DNA of 64,000 bases from Styela clava (Eukaryota; Chordata; Ascidiacea; Stolidobranchia; Styelidae). The DNA lies in NCBI RefSeq assembly GCF_964204865.1, contig NC_135257.1:15150151-15214150 (forward strand). The letters are read 5' to 3'. The notes under the pieces were generated by a model that ran no database searches, was not told the origin of the DNA, and worked only from the letters and a program-made list of their open reading frames with translations. The stretch's first letter is position 1. The number at the start of each line of letters is the position of its first letter. This document shows positions 576 to 64,000 of the stretch, piece by piece. Made by a program: the position numbers and the translations under genes.

Positions 576-3294
576 GGCAATGTACTCTTCGTGGATATTT
601 GGTTTATTCATGCTAATTCCACTCTATATAATTGGATTTATCGCATACGCATATTTTGGAGATTGCGATCCTTTGCTGAGTAACAAGATAAGTGCAGGAG
701 ATCAGGTATTCTTTGTTGTAATCGATGATTTAATTTGTTATTGCATATATTCGATGAAATTTGAGTTAAAAATCAATAAATACCTACGAAACTTAGATTT
801 CAACCGAATTGCGACAAAGCAATAATACAAAAAATTTGAAAGTCCACAAACAAGTCGTCCTTTTTTTCGTTAGCGTTCGTTGCAAGAATTTAGACTAAAA
901 TAGTAGAAAGTTAAAATAAAACTTTTGTATTAGCAATTTTGTATTAGCAATTGAATGCTGATTAATAAAGCAATGTATGTGCTGTTTTAACGCATGCCAT
1001 CGCTGAATATCATTACTACCTAACAAGCAGATCTTTAACATTATATATATCAGGTTTTACCTTATATGGTCATGATCGTGTTTCGTGATCTTCCGGGAAT
1101 GTCTGGCTTATTCATTGCTGGTATCTTTGCAGCAGGTTTAAGGTAAGTTTTGGCTGATTTGAACAGCTCGCCATATACATATACTGGGTATTCAGGCTAA
1201 TAACCATATTGAAAAGCATACCTGACTCCACTTATACCATATATAAATTTTCTTTGTGGCTTAGAAAGGTCCCGTTAATATCTACATCTAATCTCAATGC
1301 AATGTTTTTCTTGTGTACAGCACAATTTCAAGTGCATTGAATGGAATGTCGTGTGTAACTGTCGGAGATCTGATCCAGCCTCACTTCAATTGGAGCAAAA
1401 ATACACTTCTGTGGGTTTCGAAAGGTAAAATTGATAAATTATAAAAAAAAAAATGAAAATAAGGTTATTCCGTTTTTCTTCACAGAGTAGTAGTGACAAA
1501 GTCATTGCGAGTTAGTCGTCTGTTTTTCCTAGAGGTGGACGATTGTTGGATCATGATCGTGTTACGCTGAGCGGCAAAACATTTGAACCAATTGTACAAT
1601 TAATGGAGAAAGCTAAAATAGACTTCTCGCAACATATAATCAAAACAGTTTCAGTGAAACTTCAAAGAGTAACGTTTGGAGTTTCCGTAATAAATTTTGA
1701 CTTCCGACTCGGAAAAATTCAAAATGTGGAGCTCGATTCTTATTCTGGGTGTTGTCTCCAGAATTGGGTGGACGTGTTCACATTACTATTTGTCGATTTG
1801 ATTTGACAATCGTATCGGATTTTGACATCGCCTTAGATTAGCATGATTAATTAAGGATTGTCAACATTTACTTTGTTCATCACTATTATTTCATTCACGT
1901 TAATCTCACACAATATTCTAACACAATAAAAATATATTCAGTCTGGGTATTCATGTACATTGAGAATGTGAATTATATTATTTGTATAATATCAAGAATA
2001 TAATTTTCAGGCATAACACATCATATAATTTCTAGAATATTTGTCTTATTTGGCTCGCATGACCATGATTTTTACAGGAAAGTGCTGTAAACATGTAATA
2101 TCGCAAGTGAAAATGTTCTACTGTCAAGGGCTTTTACTGTTGTAAACATTTTCTATCAGGCTTGACGTTAACATATGGCATCATCTGCATTGCATTTGCA
2201 TATCTCTCTTCGATACTAGGTGGACTCATACAAGCCACTCTGAGTTTACTTGGAATCTGCGCTGGACCTTTACTCGGACCTGTGGTGTTGGGAACATTAG
2301 TTCCCTTTACCAACTCTGCCGTAATGATTATTTTTATATAATAATGAATAATTGTAATTACTTTACCTTGATAATGGTATGTTAACAGCTAAAACGTTGT
2401 GAGTGCTAATAGCAAATACCGTACATTTCTTTAAATTAAATTGATAAAAAAACGAAATATTTTCTCCCATTCTAGGGTGCGATAAGCGGCATGCTTATAT
2501 CACTAGCCTTTAGTATTTGGCTTTACGTCGGATCCACAATATATCCACCGCCTCCAGAATTTATGAGAGCCAAGTACATTACGGCATCGGGGTGTCCTGT
2601 CTCAAATTCTACTCAGAACTTCACCACAATACCGTCGACATCTTCATCTACATTTCTCGCAACAGATTCCGACAAAACACCGGCAGGTCCAGAGGAAAGA
2701 CCAGCGATAGCAGATTTCTATGCTGTATCGTTCGCATTGTACGCCTTGTATGGCCTTATGGTTAATCTTCTAGTTGGACTCATCGTGAGTTGTGCATCAG
2801 GTAAATTGAATGTGAATTATTTCGGCCTTATAGCTTATAAAAAGAAGATTATACACCAAATTTATGTTAAAAATGGGACATATAATATAATAATTAAATT
2901 AAGTGAATTTGAAATTTTATGATCCGCTGTGTTGTCAACAGGTGGATTGAAATCACGCCATCATGTGAATCCAAATCATATTTATTTGCCGTTTGAACAC
3001 AAATTACTTCGATGGTTGCCAGAAAAATTCAGAAGACTTATGAGACCTAAGTTTGTTACTACAGAGGTAAATATTATCTATTTTCACTAGAAAGTTATCT
3101 AATAATGAGGATAACTACGGCCTATTTAGATTAGTCATTCAATGGAAATTATTAGACAGGTGGTATCATTATTTCAGGCAATTGATAATGAAAAAACTTT
3201 GCATTTCGCAAAAAATGCCGAGATACTCATTATCACCTCAAATATTTCAGAATGCGATATCATCCAAACAGGAACTAAATCTGACAGACGTTAA
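576..3294 (+). CDS. Sodium-coupled monocarboxylate transporter-like protein (SLC5A8/SLC5A12 type), 3' half
   Basis: Seven coding exons: 576-705, 1054-1142, 1321-1424, 2160-2320, 2476-2800, 2942-3066 and 3178-3294 (TAA at 3292-3294). All introns are GT-AG and every phase matches. The product is the C-terminal ~315 residues of a ~600-residue sodium symporter. Recognisable parts are FGDCDP in the first exon, GLSTISSALNGMSCVTVGDL at the second junction, the helix-rich stretch ending TLVPFTNSA, then YPPPPEF and a cytoplasmic tail. The loop after YPPPPEF has N-x-S/T sites (NSTQNFT), as in SLC5A8. Known members move lactate, butyrate and other short monocarboxylates with sodium across the plasma membrane; substrate here is inferred from family only. 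SLC5A6-type vitamin transporters are a less likely alternative. The 5' exons lie outside the window. Confidence 0.88.
1543..1806 (+). other. Open frame inside an intron of the SLC5A-like gene, probably not coding
   Basis: An 87-codon open frame lies in the 735-base intron between the exons ending at 1424 and starting at 2160. It resembles no family I recognise and is not needed for the transporter, whose flanking exons join in phase without it. It may be a chance frame or a decayed element. Confidence 0.2.
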
Positions 3295-3591
3295 CAGCAG
3301 CGGGTATTTGGAAAACGGCAAGATTTCAGATAAGTCAGACGGAAAGCAAAACTTTTGTTTTATCAATGATGAAACTATTTCAACCATCATGTGAAATCAC
3401 AACATGCTATCTTCCTCGATATATTGACAATATTCTGTCCAGAAACCCCGTCATGCATTTTAGATTCATCTAAATTACAATTGCTAGTTAACTTCGTTAA
3501 CGCTGAGAACCTCTGACTTCTGTTGCTGCTTGCTATGGCACATAGGTTAACATAACATGAAAATAATTATGTTATTGTAACCAAAGCCCAG

Positions 3592-13764: not shown

Positions 13765-52939
<39,175 letters not shown>

Positions 52940-55138: not shown

Positions 55139-55314
55139 CAGAGGTGGGATTCAATTTTTTTGTCAGCCGGTTCCATTACAAAAGTCATATTTTTCAGCCG
55201 GTTCTGTTACAAAAACTCATGTTTTTTCAGTAATGCTAACCGGTTCGCTGATCTCATAAAATTCCGTGAGACGGTTCTATAGGACCGGGGCAAACCGGCT
55301 GAATCCCACCACTG
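55139..55314. mobile_element. 176 bp non-autonomous hAT element
   Basis: The inverted ends are CAGAGGTGGGATTCA and, on the complement, CAGTGGTGGGATTCA. A perfect 8 bp target duplication GCTACAAT lies at 55131-55138 and 55315-55322. The 3' part was later copied by the adjacent tandem duplication. Confidence 0.9.
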
Positions 55315-55616
55315 GCTACAATCAACAACAGGTTATTTAATCACTAATATCCCATAACATTTGATCTCAACATCTCACTATTTTGATATTGCTTTTATCC
55401 TCACTGCAATTCCGAAGAACACAATTTATTTCGCTGATCTCATAAAATTCCGTGAGACGGTTCTATAGGACCGGGGCAAACCGGCTGAATCCCACCACTG
55501 GCTACAATCAACAACAGGTTATTTAATCACTAATATCCCATAACATTTGATCTCAACATCTCACTATTTTGATATTGCTTTTATCCTCACTGCAATTCCG
55601 AAGAACACAATTTATT
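55245..55616. repeat. Exact 186 bp tandem duplication
   Basis: Units 55245-55430 and 55431-55616 appear identical base for base. Each unit contains the 3' end of the 176 bp hAT element, one copy of its target duplication and about 115 bases of flanking DNA. Confidence 0.92.
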
Positions 55617-56083
55617 TCAAGTAGAATAGAAGATTGATTGACATACATTGGATCTTTTTTCATCCAGAATAACTGTGTGCGATAATTTTATTTTAATATT
55701 TGGCAGTGGATAAAATAGCATAATATGCTCAAAATTGTGTTTTTCATGTTCAATATGCAAGTTTCCTTTAGTAACTATTAACTAAGCATACCTCAAAATA
55801 GTGCTAATATAACATTCTTTTATCTATCGCAGAGCTCCTAAGACAAAATTTATCATGATTGTTTCGTTATATTTTCATGACGTGGTAATCAGCGAACTGA
55901 GCTGGGTATCAGTTTCCCATGAAGATTTCCTAAAATTTTGGTTACATCAAGGCAGATTTACGAGCAGAGATAAGTTGGTTATTCGACACAAAAGAAAAGA
56001 AAGGGTCAAATTTTTATCACCGTATTCCAATTGTAGTATCCCTCCAGACCAGTCGAAAATTTGGGTTGCGCATTCAAACCTAC

Positions 56084-56141: not shown

Positions 56142-57115
56142 TTCCGTTTAAGAAAAAAAAAAATACCTATGTCTCCGTGGCACAAACCAACAGATATTTG
56201 TGAGATAGGAAAACCTCCCGCAACCGATTTAAGTCAATGGACCTTTCCCCGAGCTTCCACTTCCTTGTTTACTTCGTGACATTGGCCAATCAGCAAGATG
56301 TAAAACGTGACGTAACAATGCCCCCTTTTCGCATCTGCTCAGACACTTTTCTCACTCAGACAGATTTTCAAGCGTGGTTGTAAACATTACCTCGTTTTTG
56401 CGTTTTTTAACTCTATTCGTTAGTTTTCAGTTGTGTTTCGGAAACTTAAATATAAATCAGATAATTCAATGATCACTCTTTCTTCCTAGGAGTTTTAATT
56501 TAATTGCAGTAATAAAAATTAGTGTAGAAATAGCTGTGATAGATTAGCCTGAAATTCTTTACCGGTAGTTTTAAAAAAGAGATTGTTGTATGCAATGAAT
56601 CATAATGATGATTTGAAACATATACCCCATTTTACAGGCGCCAACTCGGAAAAGCACTCTTAAAATAGCCCCGAAAATTTTGCAATGGTAAAGTATAGGA
56701 AGAATTTTTCGGGGGTCAAAGGTCGGGGAAAGGTCCATAGGATGAATACAAATAGAGATGTGAATAAAACTAGCACAAGAACCAGCAGTTTTCAGCGACT
56801 TTTTCAGCCTTCAGAAAAAATTTTGTGCCGATGATCCGGCTTGCAGTCGTATATTCTCGTCATATCCAACCCTGCAAAAAAGGGTATCGACATTGCGACT
56901 GGACGAAATCGTACTGGAATAGATTTAAAACTTGGCTTGTTCAATGCATAATAGCTCAAAATGGCTTGTAAAACATATTGAAAATATATGACTTAACCGT
57001 CTTATCGGCCTTGCTCTTCGATGGGATGAATTTAAGAACTTGATTCCATCATAAATACTGTATTAGTCAATTAGGGCTTGATACACGCTTGCTTCGTAAA
57101 AATAGTCAAGCATTA

Positions 57116-57123
57116 TGACGTCA
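57116..57123. promoter_or_regulatory. Perfect cAMP-response element TGACGTCA
   Basis: The full CRE palindrome lies about 90 bases upstream of the proposed start codon of the small-exon gene. It is a plausible CREB/ATF site in a proximal promoter. A GTTTGCAAACA palindrome follows 15 bases later. Confidence 0.45.
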
Positions 57124-57208
57124 CTAAAGATTACAATGTTTGCAAACAATGACCTTTTATCAATCCGTCAAATTTATGGTAATTTATTTCATTCTGATTT
57201 CAACGCCT

Positions 57209-60200
57209 ATGGTAAGTTAATCTTTGTTATTCGATGTATTTTTAAATAGCCTTTTCAATTTAAATCATTGAATCCTCTTATTCCTTAACAGAAAATGGGA
57301 CAAGGAAAAAGAATTAGAGTTTTTCGACGCCAAATCGGCTGGGAAAAATCTATCAATAAAGCCGCCAAAGCTTTGAAAAAATATGGAAAAATTTGTTCCA
57401 AACGACAGAAGGAGGAACTCGAAAAGGTTTGTTAAATATATTTAAGTCAGCTAGTATAACTCTACAAAGCTATATGTTTTTATTTGAAAACAAGGGTTGA
57501 TTTTCTTTTTATTAATTGGGACGGGTAAGATAGCGGGATTCTTGCGTACATGATCGAAGCCTTTTCTATTAATCAAATGAATTCGCTTTTTGTTTAGATT
57601 TATGACGTCATAATCCATTATAAGCATACTCTTACTAAAGAGAGCTTGTGATGCTTATTTTTGATTACAAGCAGTTCGGTAACTTAAGCGTTTCAAACGT
57701 TTAGCGTTTTTTAGCGTAGCATTTTTTTGAGCGGCTTCAGTAAGACATCGGCAGTTTATTTTTTTTAACTTCGGAGATCGTTTTTGTTAGAGAACTTCGA
57801 AGTCGGGGAAATTTTACGCCAAATCCAAGCTCCAAGCTTTTCAAATGACGAATTCTGTTTTAACTCCAAGTTTACAAAAATTTCAATTCCGATAAAACCG
57901 AATTTTAAGAGTGAAAACTTTTAGTGCAAGCAACCATTTCCTTCCGTTGTTAATAAATAGTAGACTTCGATTTTTTATCGGAAACTTTGACGTCGATTAT
58001 CACGTCGATTGAAATTTATAATTTCAACTTCGGCGCGGATTTCTCGACTCCGGAAATTTGGAAACTCCGGACTTCTCAATAGGAACATGCAAACCCCCCA
58101 CTCCACAGCTCAAGCGGACACTCGATAGTCCTACGGTCGCACGTTGCATAAACCTGTGTTCTGAAAATGGATAATCTACGATGTCCGCAAAACATAATTC
58201 TTCCACATTTTCAAGATCTATCTACTATACAGCACGAACTTAAACTATGATATCTTTCAGGATCCATCCAAAGGAGAGTTACCTCAATCAATATTAAATA
58301 TCATTCTTGACTGGGCGAGAAAACAGTCTAAGAAGGTTCGTATCACTGTGACGTATTCAGGATATAGTGTCATTGGGTTTTGTATTAAAAACTGGTGCTG
58401 TGGTTTAAAATATTCGCGGTTCCGTAGTCTTACTAAGATTATGCTGTAGTCGCAAAGTACACTACATAGCGACATAAAACTCCATCCAGCTAGAACCGAA
58501 GTAACACAATTTGTTTGGTCTCTATCTTTGTAGGATGTACTAAAGTTGATAAAATCGGTGTATTATTTTATTTTCAGCTGTGTGTATGCATGCAAAGTCA
58601 AGAAAAAGAAACGGAGAATTTTGAGGAAGATATTCCGGTAGGCAATTATATAAATAAAATCTTAAATGATATTAGTTTTATAATACATTCAGTTCTCCTC
58701 GTTGCGGTTAGCCTTAGCAGTACGCTCGATTTTCGGCCCCTGATCTAAGGTTTGTTTCGAATACTCGTATAATGCCGATCATACCAAACTGGGTCCTTTA
58801 AAATTAGATGACCAAGCACGTCTTGTCAAAAATATTACATCGGCAGCAAATTTCACTAGTGTAAACGCACTTATTCAAAGGCGTAACTCTGTGACATCAT
58901 TCAACTGTGTTCACGTGAAAGCAAATCAGTTTCAAAATAAGAGGTTCTTCAGCCCAAAAGCACGATTATCTTTTCCAGTCGACCCCACAGAAACCAGATG
59001 TTACAAGAAGCCGTTCCGCATATCCCCAGTCTGTCAGATTAGATCCAGATGCGTGTTGTTCTGGACATTGTACTAAAAACAATAAAAAGGAGGAAGCATC
59101 ATCTTTGTGGTATCAACTATCACCGTCGTTTTCAGAAGAAGTAAATAGTAATTTATGAACCGTTCAAATTATATGGACTAGTACCACTAAAACGGTGACT
59201 TTTTAAAAGCAATAATCTTTTTGCTGAAAAAAATGCTAAAATTCAAGACAAAACAATTTGTTACAACAAGGTCCACGTCGTAATCCGGCTCAGCGAAGCC
59301 TAATACATTGTATGATTGCAGCAATTCAAAAACCATTTAACTGTAGTTGTAATCTACAAGAACAATAGCAAACATCGACTTCTTGAGTTGGTACAGAATT
59401 ATATTTTGCTATTTAGCCGATTCAAAGGGTGTGTGAATGCATTCATGAATATTCCTTTCCAGGATCTTAGTCGAGAACCGACTCCTCCACATCCATTTGA
59501 AAAAATATTGAGAGAACGAAATAGTCTAAATTACACTGAAAAAGTGAGTTTGTGTTAAATATTGTTACTTGAATGTACTACTAAAAGGTTCAATAATATC
59601 TTAATCAAACTTTTTTTGTTTTTCAGATGGACATTGAATATGCAAAAATAAGATCATTGGTAAGATTAGTAGTATTAATGAATTCAAATAATCTTGATTT
59701 ATATTATTAAAGAATCCTCGCGTTTTCATTTAACAGGATTCGGATGGAAGTGAATCACCTGATTACATGCAGGCTCTATTACGTCCCTCTGAAGTAAATA
59801 TATTATTTATTTTTATAGTAATACCTTAATTACTTTTAAATTTTTTTGGAAGACCTCATTCTACGATTACTTTATTTTTTACCTTATTTTAGATCAAACA
59901 AAGACCCAGTTTCTTTTCAGATTGGAATAGGGTAAGTTGTTGCTGTATGAACACGAGATCATTAGGTAAATTATCGTTAGAAATCGATTCATTAAAATAT
60001 CGTTTAAAATAACCATGAACGCTCCGAGGTGTAACAGTTAATAGTGGTTATTGTAGAAGAATTACTTCGTCTATGATTCAGTTTGAGATTCCGGGCCTCA
60101 TCACCCGACAGCTAATTAAAATTTACATACCGTTTTTGCTTTGTTTCAGCCAAATCCGTTTTTCCGTCTACCAGGAAACACGCCACCTCCTTTCCCAGTT

Positions 60201-63200
60201 TAAACCGAAGTAACACAATTCGTTTGGTCTCAATCTTTGGAGGATGTAACTAAAGTTGATAAAATCGGGGTATTATTTTATTTCAGCTGTGTGTATGCAT
60301 GCAAAGTCAAGAAAAAAAAACGGAGAATTTTGAGGAAGATATTCCGGTAGGCAATTATATAAATAAAATCTTATTACATCGACAGCAAATTTCAGCTAGT
60401 GTAAACTTACTTATTCAAAGACGTAACTCTGTGACATCATTCAACTGTCCTGCGCGTAAATGCAAATCAGTTTCAAAATAAGAGGTTCTTCAGCCCAAAA
60501 GCACGATTATCTTTTCCAGTCGACCCCACAGAATCCAGATGTTACAAGAAGCCGTTCCGCATGTCCCCAGTCTGTCAGATTAGATCCAGATGCGTGTTGT
60601 TCTGGACATTGTACTAAAAACAATAAAAAGGAGGAAGCATCATCTTTGTGGTATCAACTATCACCGTCGTTTTCAGAAGAAGTAAATAGTAATTTATGAA
60701 CCGTTCAAATTATATGGACTAGTACCACTAAAACGGTGACTTTTTAAAAGCAATAATCTTTTTGCTGAAAAAAATGCTAAAATTCAAGACAAAACAATTT
60801 GTTACAACAAGGTCCACGTCGTAATCCGGCTCAGCGAAACTTAATACATTGTATGATTGCAGCAATTCAAAAACCATTTAACTGTAGTTGTAATCTACAA
60901 GAACAATAGCAAACATCGACTTCTTGAGTTGGTACAGATTTATATTTTGCTATTTAGCCGATTCAAAGGGTGTGTGAATGCATTCATGAATATTCCTTTC
61001 CAGGATCTTAGTCGAGAACCGACTCCTCCACATCCATTTGAAAAAATATTGAGAGAACGAAATAGTCTAAATTACATTGAAAAAGTGAGTTTGTGTTAAA
61101 TATTGTTACTTGAATGTACTGCTAAAATGTTCAATAATATTTTAATCAAACTTTTTTTTGTTCTTCAGATGGACATTGAATATGCAAAAATAAGATCATT
61201 GGTAAGATTAGTAGTATTAATTAATTCAAATAATCTTGATTTATATTATTAAAGAATCCTCGCGTTTTCGTTTAACAGGATTCGGATGGAAGTGAATCAC
61301 CTGATTACATGCAGGCTCTATTGCGTCCCTCTGAAGTAAATATATTATTTTTTATAGTAATACCTTAATTACTTTTAAATTTTTTTGGAAGATCTCATTC
61401 TACGATTACTTTATTTTTTACCTTATTTTAGATCAAACAAAGACCCAGTTTTTTTTCAGATCGGAATAGGGTAAGTTGTTGCTGTATGAACACGTAATCA
61501 CTAGGTAAATTATTGTTAGAAATCGATACATTAAAATATCGTTTAACATAACCATGAACGCTCCAAGGTGTAACAGTTAATAGTGGTTATTGTAGAAGAA
61601 TTACTTCGTCTATGATTCAGTTTGAGATTCCGGGCCCCATCAACCGACGGCTAATTAAAACTTACATAACGTTTCCGCTTTGTTTCAGCCAAATCCATTT
61701 TTCCGTCTACCAGGAAACACGCCACCTCCTTTCCCATCGGACTGGAATTTAAAGGAATCGAAGGTAAGAGCTATATTTTACTAATTGATATTAAGGATTT
61801 GCTCCTCTATTCATCAAAGTGCGTAAATTTAGTTGTACATGAGATTGAATACAACAAATAAAGATTTTCACAAATACCATTTCGAGTCATAGATCGGTCA
61901 AAAAAGTTATCGACGATGTGCTATTTGCTATTAGGTTCACTTCAGGTTTCCAAGTAGAGATTTTTTGGTTCAGAGTGTTACTTTGTCTGGTGTATTCATT
62001 TTTCTTGCAACTTGAAAAAAGTAGAATTAGTATGTATCTAAAGTTGTTTTTTAATTGCAAACGTGATCTCACATATTTATTTTGATTAAATGTTATTCAT
62101 ATTTGACAGGAGGCTCCCAGCTCTCGACCAATGGCTTCTACTGTTTTGCCTGAGCCTGAATGGGAAGTGTCGAAAGATGATACAAATGCAATGACGGAGG
62201 TATGTTGAGTAGTTTGTACATATATTTTACAGTTAAGTGGATAATATCTATCATTCTTGTCACAATAATTAGTGATATTGTTTGTGCTTCGCTCACTCCG
62301 TCTTTCGCCAGAATAGCTTCTCCAAAACCTTCATGTTCTTTTGCCTAAAACATGCTACAATGTTTTTTTCTTGCATCCCTACCTAAAACAAGCAGAACTG
62401 AGTGATATAACTGTAGATTCAGATAGGCAGACAAAAACATCGACTACACTATGTTTTGACCTATATATTTTATATTAACAGGTAAACACCGCCGATAGTG
62501 AGAAAGAAAAAATATCAGAGATTCACGTAAGATTCCTGCCTCACAAAACTTATTGTCGCCCCCAATGTACTTTATTTATCACAATTTGTATAAATACTGT
62601 TTTCTAGGTTGCAATGGCAGTGGCTGAAAGAATGGACTGGATGCTTGAACAGGTTGAAAATAACCTTGGAGGAAATTCACCTAATCTTTCCAAAATCATA
62701 GTGAGTTAAAAATTTTAGGTCTTGCGTGAGAAATATTCAACATGAAATCCCAAAATGGAATAAGGTTGACAAGGAAATTTTCTTTAAGCATATTTTGGGT
62801 AAAAGGCGCCACCTATGGCCGGACTCAAAATCTTGTAGACGTATATAGATACATTGAGAGATTATTTCAAATTATCGGTATATCAGGTATATCAGGTATA
62901 GAAATTTATGTCAGACATTCCAGTCATTTCAAAACACTATAGTTTTAGCTATACGATAGAAAAATAAATAAAAAATTTATGTATTATTATAATAATATTA
63001 CGTGTTTCAATTTAACAGGAAGAGGCTGTAATACAGCACAGTGAAAGTTCAGAAGTCAACGAGGAATGTGATGATGGAGAAGTGAGTTGCATTATATTTT
63101 ATTTATTGTGATCGTATATATTCATATTTACGCAAACCAGGGACAAACGCTTTAAATATATTTCAACATTTTTGCATGATTCGTACAGTTTCTTAGTTTA

Positions 63201-64000
63201 TAAATATACTTATTTTAGAGTGACAATTTATCGGTATCGGTGGATATGAGTTCAGAAGACGAAGAAGAAATCAACATTCGAGAGGTTTGTTTACATTTTG
63301 TTCCTGATTTCCCATTTAATAATCTTAATCTCAATCAAAGTGCGTTAAAGCATTGGACCTGACTTTGACATCGCAGATTACACGTCTCTGGTTCAAATCC
63401 CACGTCCCACTCCATCCAGAGTCTACTAAATTGAGTAGGCAATGCAGAACCGAAAAGATTCAGGTTCTTCCAAATAGCATTAGCTGCTCACATTCTTGGT
63501 ATTATTGGATGCTTGTATACGACCTGTTTAGAAGCGAAATGCGCCAATAGGCATTGTATAGAATTAGAACCAAAAAATTTGTCTCAAAGACAAGATTCTT
63601 TCGTGAAATTCAAATCTTTGCAAATCTAGAGAAAAAAATGTTTGAACATCACAGTTTATGACAGCTAAATTTTGTATTTCGAAAAAAAAACATTTGGAAT
63701 TGATTTTTTTAGCTTGATTCAAGAGCAACTTACGTTGTTGATGCCGATGTTACTTCACTGGTTCCTGTGAGTAAATTTACTTTGAATATAATTAAAGTAT
63801 TGTTTGATTACGATAATTTAAATCAAAACATTTATTCCAGACTGATGAAACATGCGAACAATGGGTTGATGACATTTTGTTTGGCGAATTGGAAGTCGTT
63901 GGTAGAGAGGTGAGCATGTAACATAGTATTAAAAACATTCTGCAATTTTTTTGCTCATCTATTTATATGCTTTTTCATACAGGAGTCAGACTTAATTTGT
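57209..64000 (+). CDS. Unrecognised gene of small phase-0 exons, 5' part
   Basis: Coding exons: ATG at 57209-57211, 57292-57426, 58261-58335, [58578-58637, 58979-59140, 59463-59543, 59627-59659, 59737-59793, 59893-59931, 60150-60203 or beyond], [60287-60346, 60520-60681, 61004-61084, 61169-61201, 61279-61335, 61432-61470, 61689-61763], 62110-62199, 62482-62526, 62608-62700, 63019-63081, 63219-63284, 63713-63766, 63841-63909 and 63983 onward. Brackets mark the duplicated blocks. Internal exons are 33-162 bases and multiples of three, with GT-AG phase-0 introns. The N-terminus is basic (MGQGKRIRVFRRQIGWEK); later exons are acidic and Ser/Pro-rich (SSEDEEEINIRE, EWEVSKDD), with a Cys cluster CCSGHC and a repeated SDWN motif. 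No signal peptide, membrane segment or known domain is seen, so disorder is likely. I do not recognise the family. The gene continues past the window. Confidence 0.75.
58494..60203 (+). repeat. Intragenic tandem duplication, copy 1
   Basis: The unit 58494-60197 (about 1.70 kb) carries six complete small exons plus a seventh, truncated one. In this copy the PNPFF exon is interrupted after PPPFP by the junction and runs to TAA at 60201-60203. An extra ~170 bases in the first intron (about 58665-58835) are absent from copy 2. Confidence 0.9.
58665..58835 (+). mobile_element. 170 bp indel with SINE-like boxes
   Basis: Present in duplication copy 1 and absent from copy 2, at the point AAATCTTA/TTACATCG. 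It contains GGTTAGCCTTAGCAGTACGC (A-box-like) and GTTTCGAATAC (B-box-like), suggesting a tRNA-derived SINE. Flanking target duplication is not clear, so loss from copy 2 cannot be excluded. Confidence 0.4.
60203..61736 (+). repeat. Intragenic tandem duplication, copy 2
   Basis: The unit is about 1.53 kb. All corresponding exons are open. Coding differences from copy 1 include E to K, K to N, Y to C, T to I and W to R, plus about three silent changes. The final exon (61689-61763) is complete here, reading PPPFPSDWNLKESK before a good donor. Confidence 0.9.
63335..63575 (+). mobile_element. tRNA-derived SINE-like repeat, family D, copy 2
   Basis: An A-box-like GCGTTAAAGCATTGGACC and a B box TGGTTCAAATCCC lie about 40 bases apart. 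They are followed by a tail (TAAATTGAGTAGGCAATGCA, then GAACCGAAAAGATT) that matches the 44.0 kb copy. It lies within an intron of the small-exon gene and is in the same direction. Confidence 0.6.

Follow-up and report, generated by a model that had tools for sequence, protein, structure and literature searches.

A Styela clava gene of small symmetric exons and phase-0 introns whose assembled sequence contains a tandemly repeated block with a truncated exon

We find, at the downstream end of a 64,000-nucleotide stretch of Styela clava DNA (hereafter the window; positions are counted from its first letter), a chain of 16 different complete coding exons that runs on the plus strand from 57292 to the window end. 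Each exon is 33-162 nt long with a length divisible by three, and the introns between and after these exons are in phase 0 in 16 out of 16 cases. Part of the chain, 58486-61736, is a block that occurs twice in tandem and contains a broken exon, which we regard as the most useful new fact of this analysis. Our joint reading, to which we give a probability of roughly 0.6, is that of a protein-coding animal gene with all introns in phase 0 that would be spliced mainly into one long message, whose layout may be a legacy of the way the gene grew and whose product may be a charged linker or scaffold.

An exon chain with phase-0 introns

The unique exons measure, in order, 135, 75, 60, 162, 81, 33, 57, 39, 75, 90, 45, 93, 63, 66, 54 and 69 nt (median 67.5 nt, total 1197 nt) and, with AG/GT borders placed by script, span 57292 to 63909. 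Joined as one spliced chain they are free of stops in frame 0, whereas the two alternative frames contain 12 and 37. Every complete exon is given by both the script and a gene finder and begins and ends in phase 0. The first (57292-57426, 135 nt), which encodes a basic segment, is further supported by the frame test. It is followed by a 75-nt exon at 58261-58335, by the exons of the repeated block described below and by a second 75-nt exon, complete at 61689-61763. The chain then continues with exons of 90 nt (62110-62199), 45 nt (62482-62526), 93 nt (62608-62700), 63 nt (63019-63081, acidic), 66 nt (63219-63284, acidic), 54 nt (63713-63766) and 69 nt (63841-63909). The gene finder also places, at 63983-64000, the beginning of another exon that is entered in phase 0 and cut off by the window end.

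When all copies are counted, the script lists 22 complete internal coding exons and one truncated exon, again of 33-162 nt. Six of the 22 are second copies from the tandem repeat, and thus only 16 exons and 16 introns are independent. An AG acceptor is present on every exon and a GT donor on every exon except the truncated one. The sequence-only reading of this DNA had described a continuous string of exons, all multiples of three and all separated by phase-0 introns, from which exons could be skipped freely. The script and the phase-neutral gene finder bear out the lengths and the phases, and skipping without a frameshift is indeed true of every complete exon. The continuous string from 57209 stands as far as the chain and its phases are concerned; six of its exons had been counted twice, and the truncated exon (60150-60203), which has no donor and ends in TAA, makes the string discontinuous unless that exon is skipped. 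Both the tandem repeat and its truncated exon had been overlooked.

The start codon had been set at 57209. Direct reading does find an ATG there (57209-57211) followed immediately by GTAAGT, a possible start in an exon stub, and among the gene-finder runs with printed exons it is picked at intron penalties of -4 and -3 only. This start is uncertain because a second in-frame ATG of the spliced message, at 57295 within the 135-nt exon, looks better placed, in the context AAAATGG. Translation would start either at 57209, directly before an intron, or, more likely from the context, at 57295.

The gene finder used here was custom-built without any phase preference, with a codon table derived from four open reading frames of other genes and with generic splice weights. 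A first, stricter run (penalty -9, stricter site cut-offs) gave only seven exons with six introns, all in phase 0, and the penalties and cut-offs were therefore relaxed. At an intron penalty of -4 the program returned 24 exons on 56801-64000, with 23 out of 23 introns in phase 0; 22 of these exons are identical to hand-placed ones (of 23 hand-listed), and the remaining two are the stub with the ATG at 57209 and the incomplete exon at the window end. Penalties of -8, -7, -6, -5 and -3 gave 10, 14, 14, 21 and 25 exons with 9, 13, 13, 20 and 24 introns, respectively, every one of them in phase 0. An extra exon at 58750-58914 appeared only at the laxest penalty (-3); it has weak sites and overlaps a stretch that is absent from copy 2 of the repeat, and we rejected it.

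When phase 0 was forbidden, the gene-finder score fell from 81.1 to 16.6. The best score was 51.0 on both strands of 17 other 7.2-kb segments, where 24 of 72 introns were in phase 0 and many models are noise, and 10.7 on 20 first-order simulated sequences. The same program, run on a FAM135-like gene on the minus strand (14046-28158), gave 18 exons, the last few of which may be wrong, and 17 introns with mixed phases (four in phase 0, nine in phase 1 and four in phase 2), a control that is not independent of the training because two of the four training open reading frames lie in that gene. Two of five introns were in phase 0 in a gene-finder model at 1066-3394, which we take to be transporter-like and whose longest open reading frame gave no family in Pfam.

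If half of all introns were in phase 0 and phases were independent, 16 out of 16 would have a probability of 1.5e-5. Independent draws would therefore not be expected to yield such a gene in an ordinary-sized gene set, and a functional reason has to be kept in view. Intron phases inside one gene presumably share a history, in which case they are not independent draws. An excess of phase-0 introns has been described for nearly all genomes analysed, with the exception of the tunicate Oikopleura (PMC3488318).

A repeated block with a truncated exon

The segment 58486-60197 (copy 1) recurs on the same strand as 60195-61736 (copy 2). The repeat alignment pairs 58486-58664 with 60195-60373 at 94.4% identity and 58833-60197 with 60372-61736 at 96.6% identity, and copy 2 is without a 170-nt stretch of intron. 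Inside the block are six whole exons (60, 162, 81, 33, 57 and 39 nt) and the beginning of the second 75-nt exon. The whole exons lie, in this order, at 58578-58637, 58979-59140, 59463-59543, 59627-59659, 59737-59793 and 59893-59931 in copy 1, and at 60287-60346, 60520-60681, 61004-61084, 61169-61201, 61279-61335 and 61432-61470 in copy 2. In copy 1 the 75-nt exon is interrupted near 60198 by the repeat junction and continues into intron-derived sequence, reading PNPFFRLPGNTPPPFPV and then an in-frame TAA at 60201-60203. Seven GT sites are found from 60198 to 60287; the best of them has a score of only -0.1 and is located behind the stop.

The consequences for the product depend on how this exon is handled. 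From the ATG at 57209, a message in which copy 1 is spliced in full encodes a protein that ends after 232 residues. Given the phase-0 layout, skipping the truncated exon is frame-neutral, and with that exon skipped the frame is open from the same ATG to 63909, across both copies, for 544 codons. A long product would require this skip if the block is real. With a single copy real or in use, 404 or 406 residues of the protein are known, depending on the start.

The two copies differ at 8 of 480 exon sites (1.7%) and at 40 of 1058 intron sites (3.8%; Fisher p = 0.027); the exon count was 9 of 481 before one site, together with gap columns, was removed at the breakpoint. No indel separates the copies within the six whole exons. 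The codon changes in these exons comprise five replacing and two silent ones (pN 0.0145, pS 0.0226, pN/pS ~0.64), which would suggest only weak constraint.

This divergence looks allelic, and the block 58486-61736 therefore represents either a duplication that arose recently within the gene or two alleles that the assembly placed one behind the other. We treat the reality of the duplication as an even bet: it is just as probable that two haplotypes of 58486-60197 were placed serially in the assembly, in which case the real gene has each exon once and no truncated exon. The intron and exon differences, taken together with the 170-nt indel, would fit the divergence of alleles in heterozygous animals, and full inclusion of the block would interrupt the long frame. 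Nearby, at 55244-55618, two tandem copies of ~186 nt are 100% identical, which likewise points to very recent duplication or to an error of assembly. False segmental duplications from unmerged haplotypes have been described in print (PMC2864568), and the present block resembles them in being an adjacent, near-identical stretch with exons and with allele-like divergence. It differs from them in a junction without a gap. Also against an artefact, the window contains no N, and the breakpoint is sharp and falls within an exon, as expected of a real rearrangement. If the duplication is real, it would offer a clean case of a phase-0 architecture buffering a damaging exon-block duplication, with 544 codons open against 232 residues. 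If it is an artefact, it would be a warning that, in heterozygous animals, assembly can raise the exon number and the isoform predictions of such genes above their true values.

The broken exon could also mark a gene that is decaying, or has become a pseudogene, through the duplication. Provided that the block is real, inclusion of the truncated exon, which has a TAA and no donor, shortens the product as described, and the pN/pS value between the copies points in the same direction. Against this, all other exons are open and have usable splice sites over ~1.2 kb of coding sequence, and the frame stays open for 544 codons once the truncated exon is skipped. We consider decay quite unlikely. Outside the repeated block, descent of the exons from one another by old duplication was rejected, as the best pair score of 35 was matched by 9 of 100 shuffles.

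The predicted protein

The translated chain is divided by charge, with a net charge of +13 in the first 69 residues and -42 in the remaining 335. The product had been called mostly acidic and probably disordered. The first term fits the residues after position 69 and does not fit the basic segment before it. As for disorder, both parts fall on the unfolded side in a charge-hydropathy comparison, while TOP-IDP gives a mixed picture, exceeding 0.2 at 32% of positions in one part and at 47% in the other. No hydrophobic N-terminus is seen, the highest Kyte-Doolittle mean of any 11-residue stretch among the first 40 residues being -0.26, and the translated chain contains no membrane-like segment; for these reasons we take the protein to be probably intracellular. 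It would consist of a basic N-terminus of ~70 residues and a long, acidic and largely unstructured remainder, and this remainder may serve as a charged linker or a binding scaffold, a guess made from composition.

Pfam gave no match with the 406-residue chain or with three pieces of it, and PDB sequences included no relative of the whole chain. A designed protein in the PDB matched by the first 69 residues (E 0.4) was rejected as chance. Viral contigs held no relative of the 170 N-terminal or of 160 later residues, and prokaryote genome contigs none of the 170 N-terminal residues. Apart from Pfam and the PDB, the sets searched hold no eukaryotic sequence by design, and the absence of relatives in them therefore says little. 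These results agree with the sequence-only reading, which could place the gene in no family and had proposed a profile search with the translated exons, carried out here against Pfam without a match. Literature on genes with only phase-0 introns, on symmetric exons and on micro-exons of tunicates yielded no title naming the gene; a prior description is possible, as the gene lacks a name.

Comparison with known gene systems

Micro-exons have an upper size of 36 nt, and only one of the 16 exons described here is that small. The layout had been likened to that of the micro-exon genes (MEGs) of schistosomes. The MEGs are reported to encode a signal peptide on all their products and to consist, over most of the coding region, of very small symmetrical exons, and they are described as apparently restricted to platyhelminths (PMC4350168). 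The present gene shares with them small symmetric coding exons. It differs in that no signal peptide is seen at its N-terminus and in that its exons, at the median given above, are symmetric but not very small. The analogy fails on both counts, and schistosome MEGs are a poor match.

The sequence-only reading had further proposed that the symmetric exons are used or skipped in many combinations, so that one gene would yield a set of related disordered proteins, as in micro-exon genes. The layout permits combinatorial splicing; constitutive and alternative splicing of this gene are equally putative. In favour of such a variant generator are the uniform phase of all 16 unique introns, the small size of the exons and the weak score of some donors (-0.3 after the 162-nt and 57-nt exons). 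We nevertheless think it unlikely, because the micro-exon features that were tested, a signal peptide and very small exons, are absent and because other all-phase-0 genes are known that need not be variant generators; in the published example alternative splicing is said to keep the frame (PMC6732285). A more far-reaching version, which we hold to be very unlikely, is a non-secreted counterpart of micro-exon genes outside flatworms, frame-neutral and producing many variants by combinatorial exon use, that grows by block duplication and bypasses a newly broken exon in splicing.

The all-phase-0 layout is a recognised one that was already known, and its observation here is correct and not trivial. 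The closest published layout, and by analogy a better parallel than the MEGs, is that of the vertebrate SCPP genes, such as ameloblastin (AMBN). Introns of SCPP genes are described as virtually all in phase 0, a layout in which exon duplication, deletion and alternative splicing proceed without a frame shift (PMC6732285). AMBN itself is reported to have all introns in phase 0, to have added exons through tandem duplication and to possess two in-frame starts, of which the one in exon 2 is better (PMC6732285). The likeness to the present gene extends from the uniform intron phase to the second in-frame start at 57295, which likewise seems the better one. SCPPs, secretory by name, carry a signal peptide, whereas none is seen here. 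The parallel would thus be one of layouts that work alike, and the signal-peptide test speaks against membership among the SCPPs. Proteins of the SCPP type diverge fast; Pfam gave no match that would point to homology, and the identified neighbours in the window are a short-chain dehydrogenase, a sulfotransferase and the DUF676/FAM135-like gene. Fibrillar collagen genes also contain long runs of small 0-0 exons. The collagen hallmark, a Gly-X-Y repeat, is absent from the translated exons.

For the preferred reading of a gene spliced mainly into one long message, the phase-0 layout would be a legacy of gene growth under which exons can be gained, lost or duplicated, as in ameloblastin, and would not in itself generate variants. 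We count in its favour the frame and phase tests with their controls, the lower divergence of exons than of introns together with the lack of indels in whole exons, the lack of clear likeness among exons outside the block, the absence of a hydrophobic N-terminus and the AMBN layout. Against it we count the improbability of 16 out of 16 phase-0 introns, the weak constraint between the copies and the mixed disorder scores.

Other features of the window

The short-chain dehydrogenase has its best PDB match in 1xg5 (E 2.6e-68), which we take to be human DHRS11. The sulfotransferase gene was identified by Pfam, and Pfam DUF676 was matched by joined open reading frame pieces of the remaining neighbour (E 9.1e-15), for which we assume the name FAM135. 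ARAGORN found no tRNA in the window and Rfam gave no match at gathering scores; a sub-threshold group II intron hit at 56570-56723 (E 0.062, 23.8 bits vs 34.5) was rejected as chance. Within an intron of the phase-0 gene, the stretch 63330-63580 includes GGTTCAAATCC at 63390, which resembles a tRNA-type B box; this stretch may be a tRNA-derived SINE, and no second copy of it occurs in the window. Inside the FAM135-like gene, 17314-17628 and 22079-22394 form a direct repeat of ~316 nt with 89.7% identity, possibly a mobile element. The same may be true of two inverted copies of ~190 nt, 84% identical, at 30494-30681 and 50230-50421. Among 2-kb steps, 42001-44000 has the lowest GC (0.270) and the largest GC skew (+0.207).
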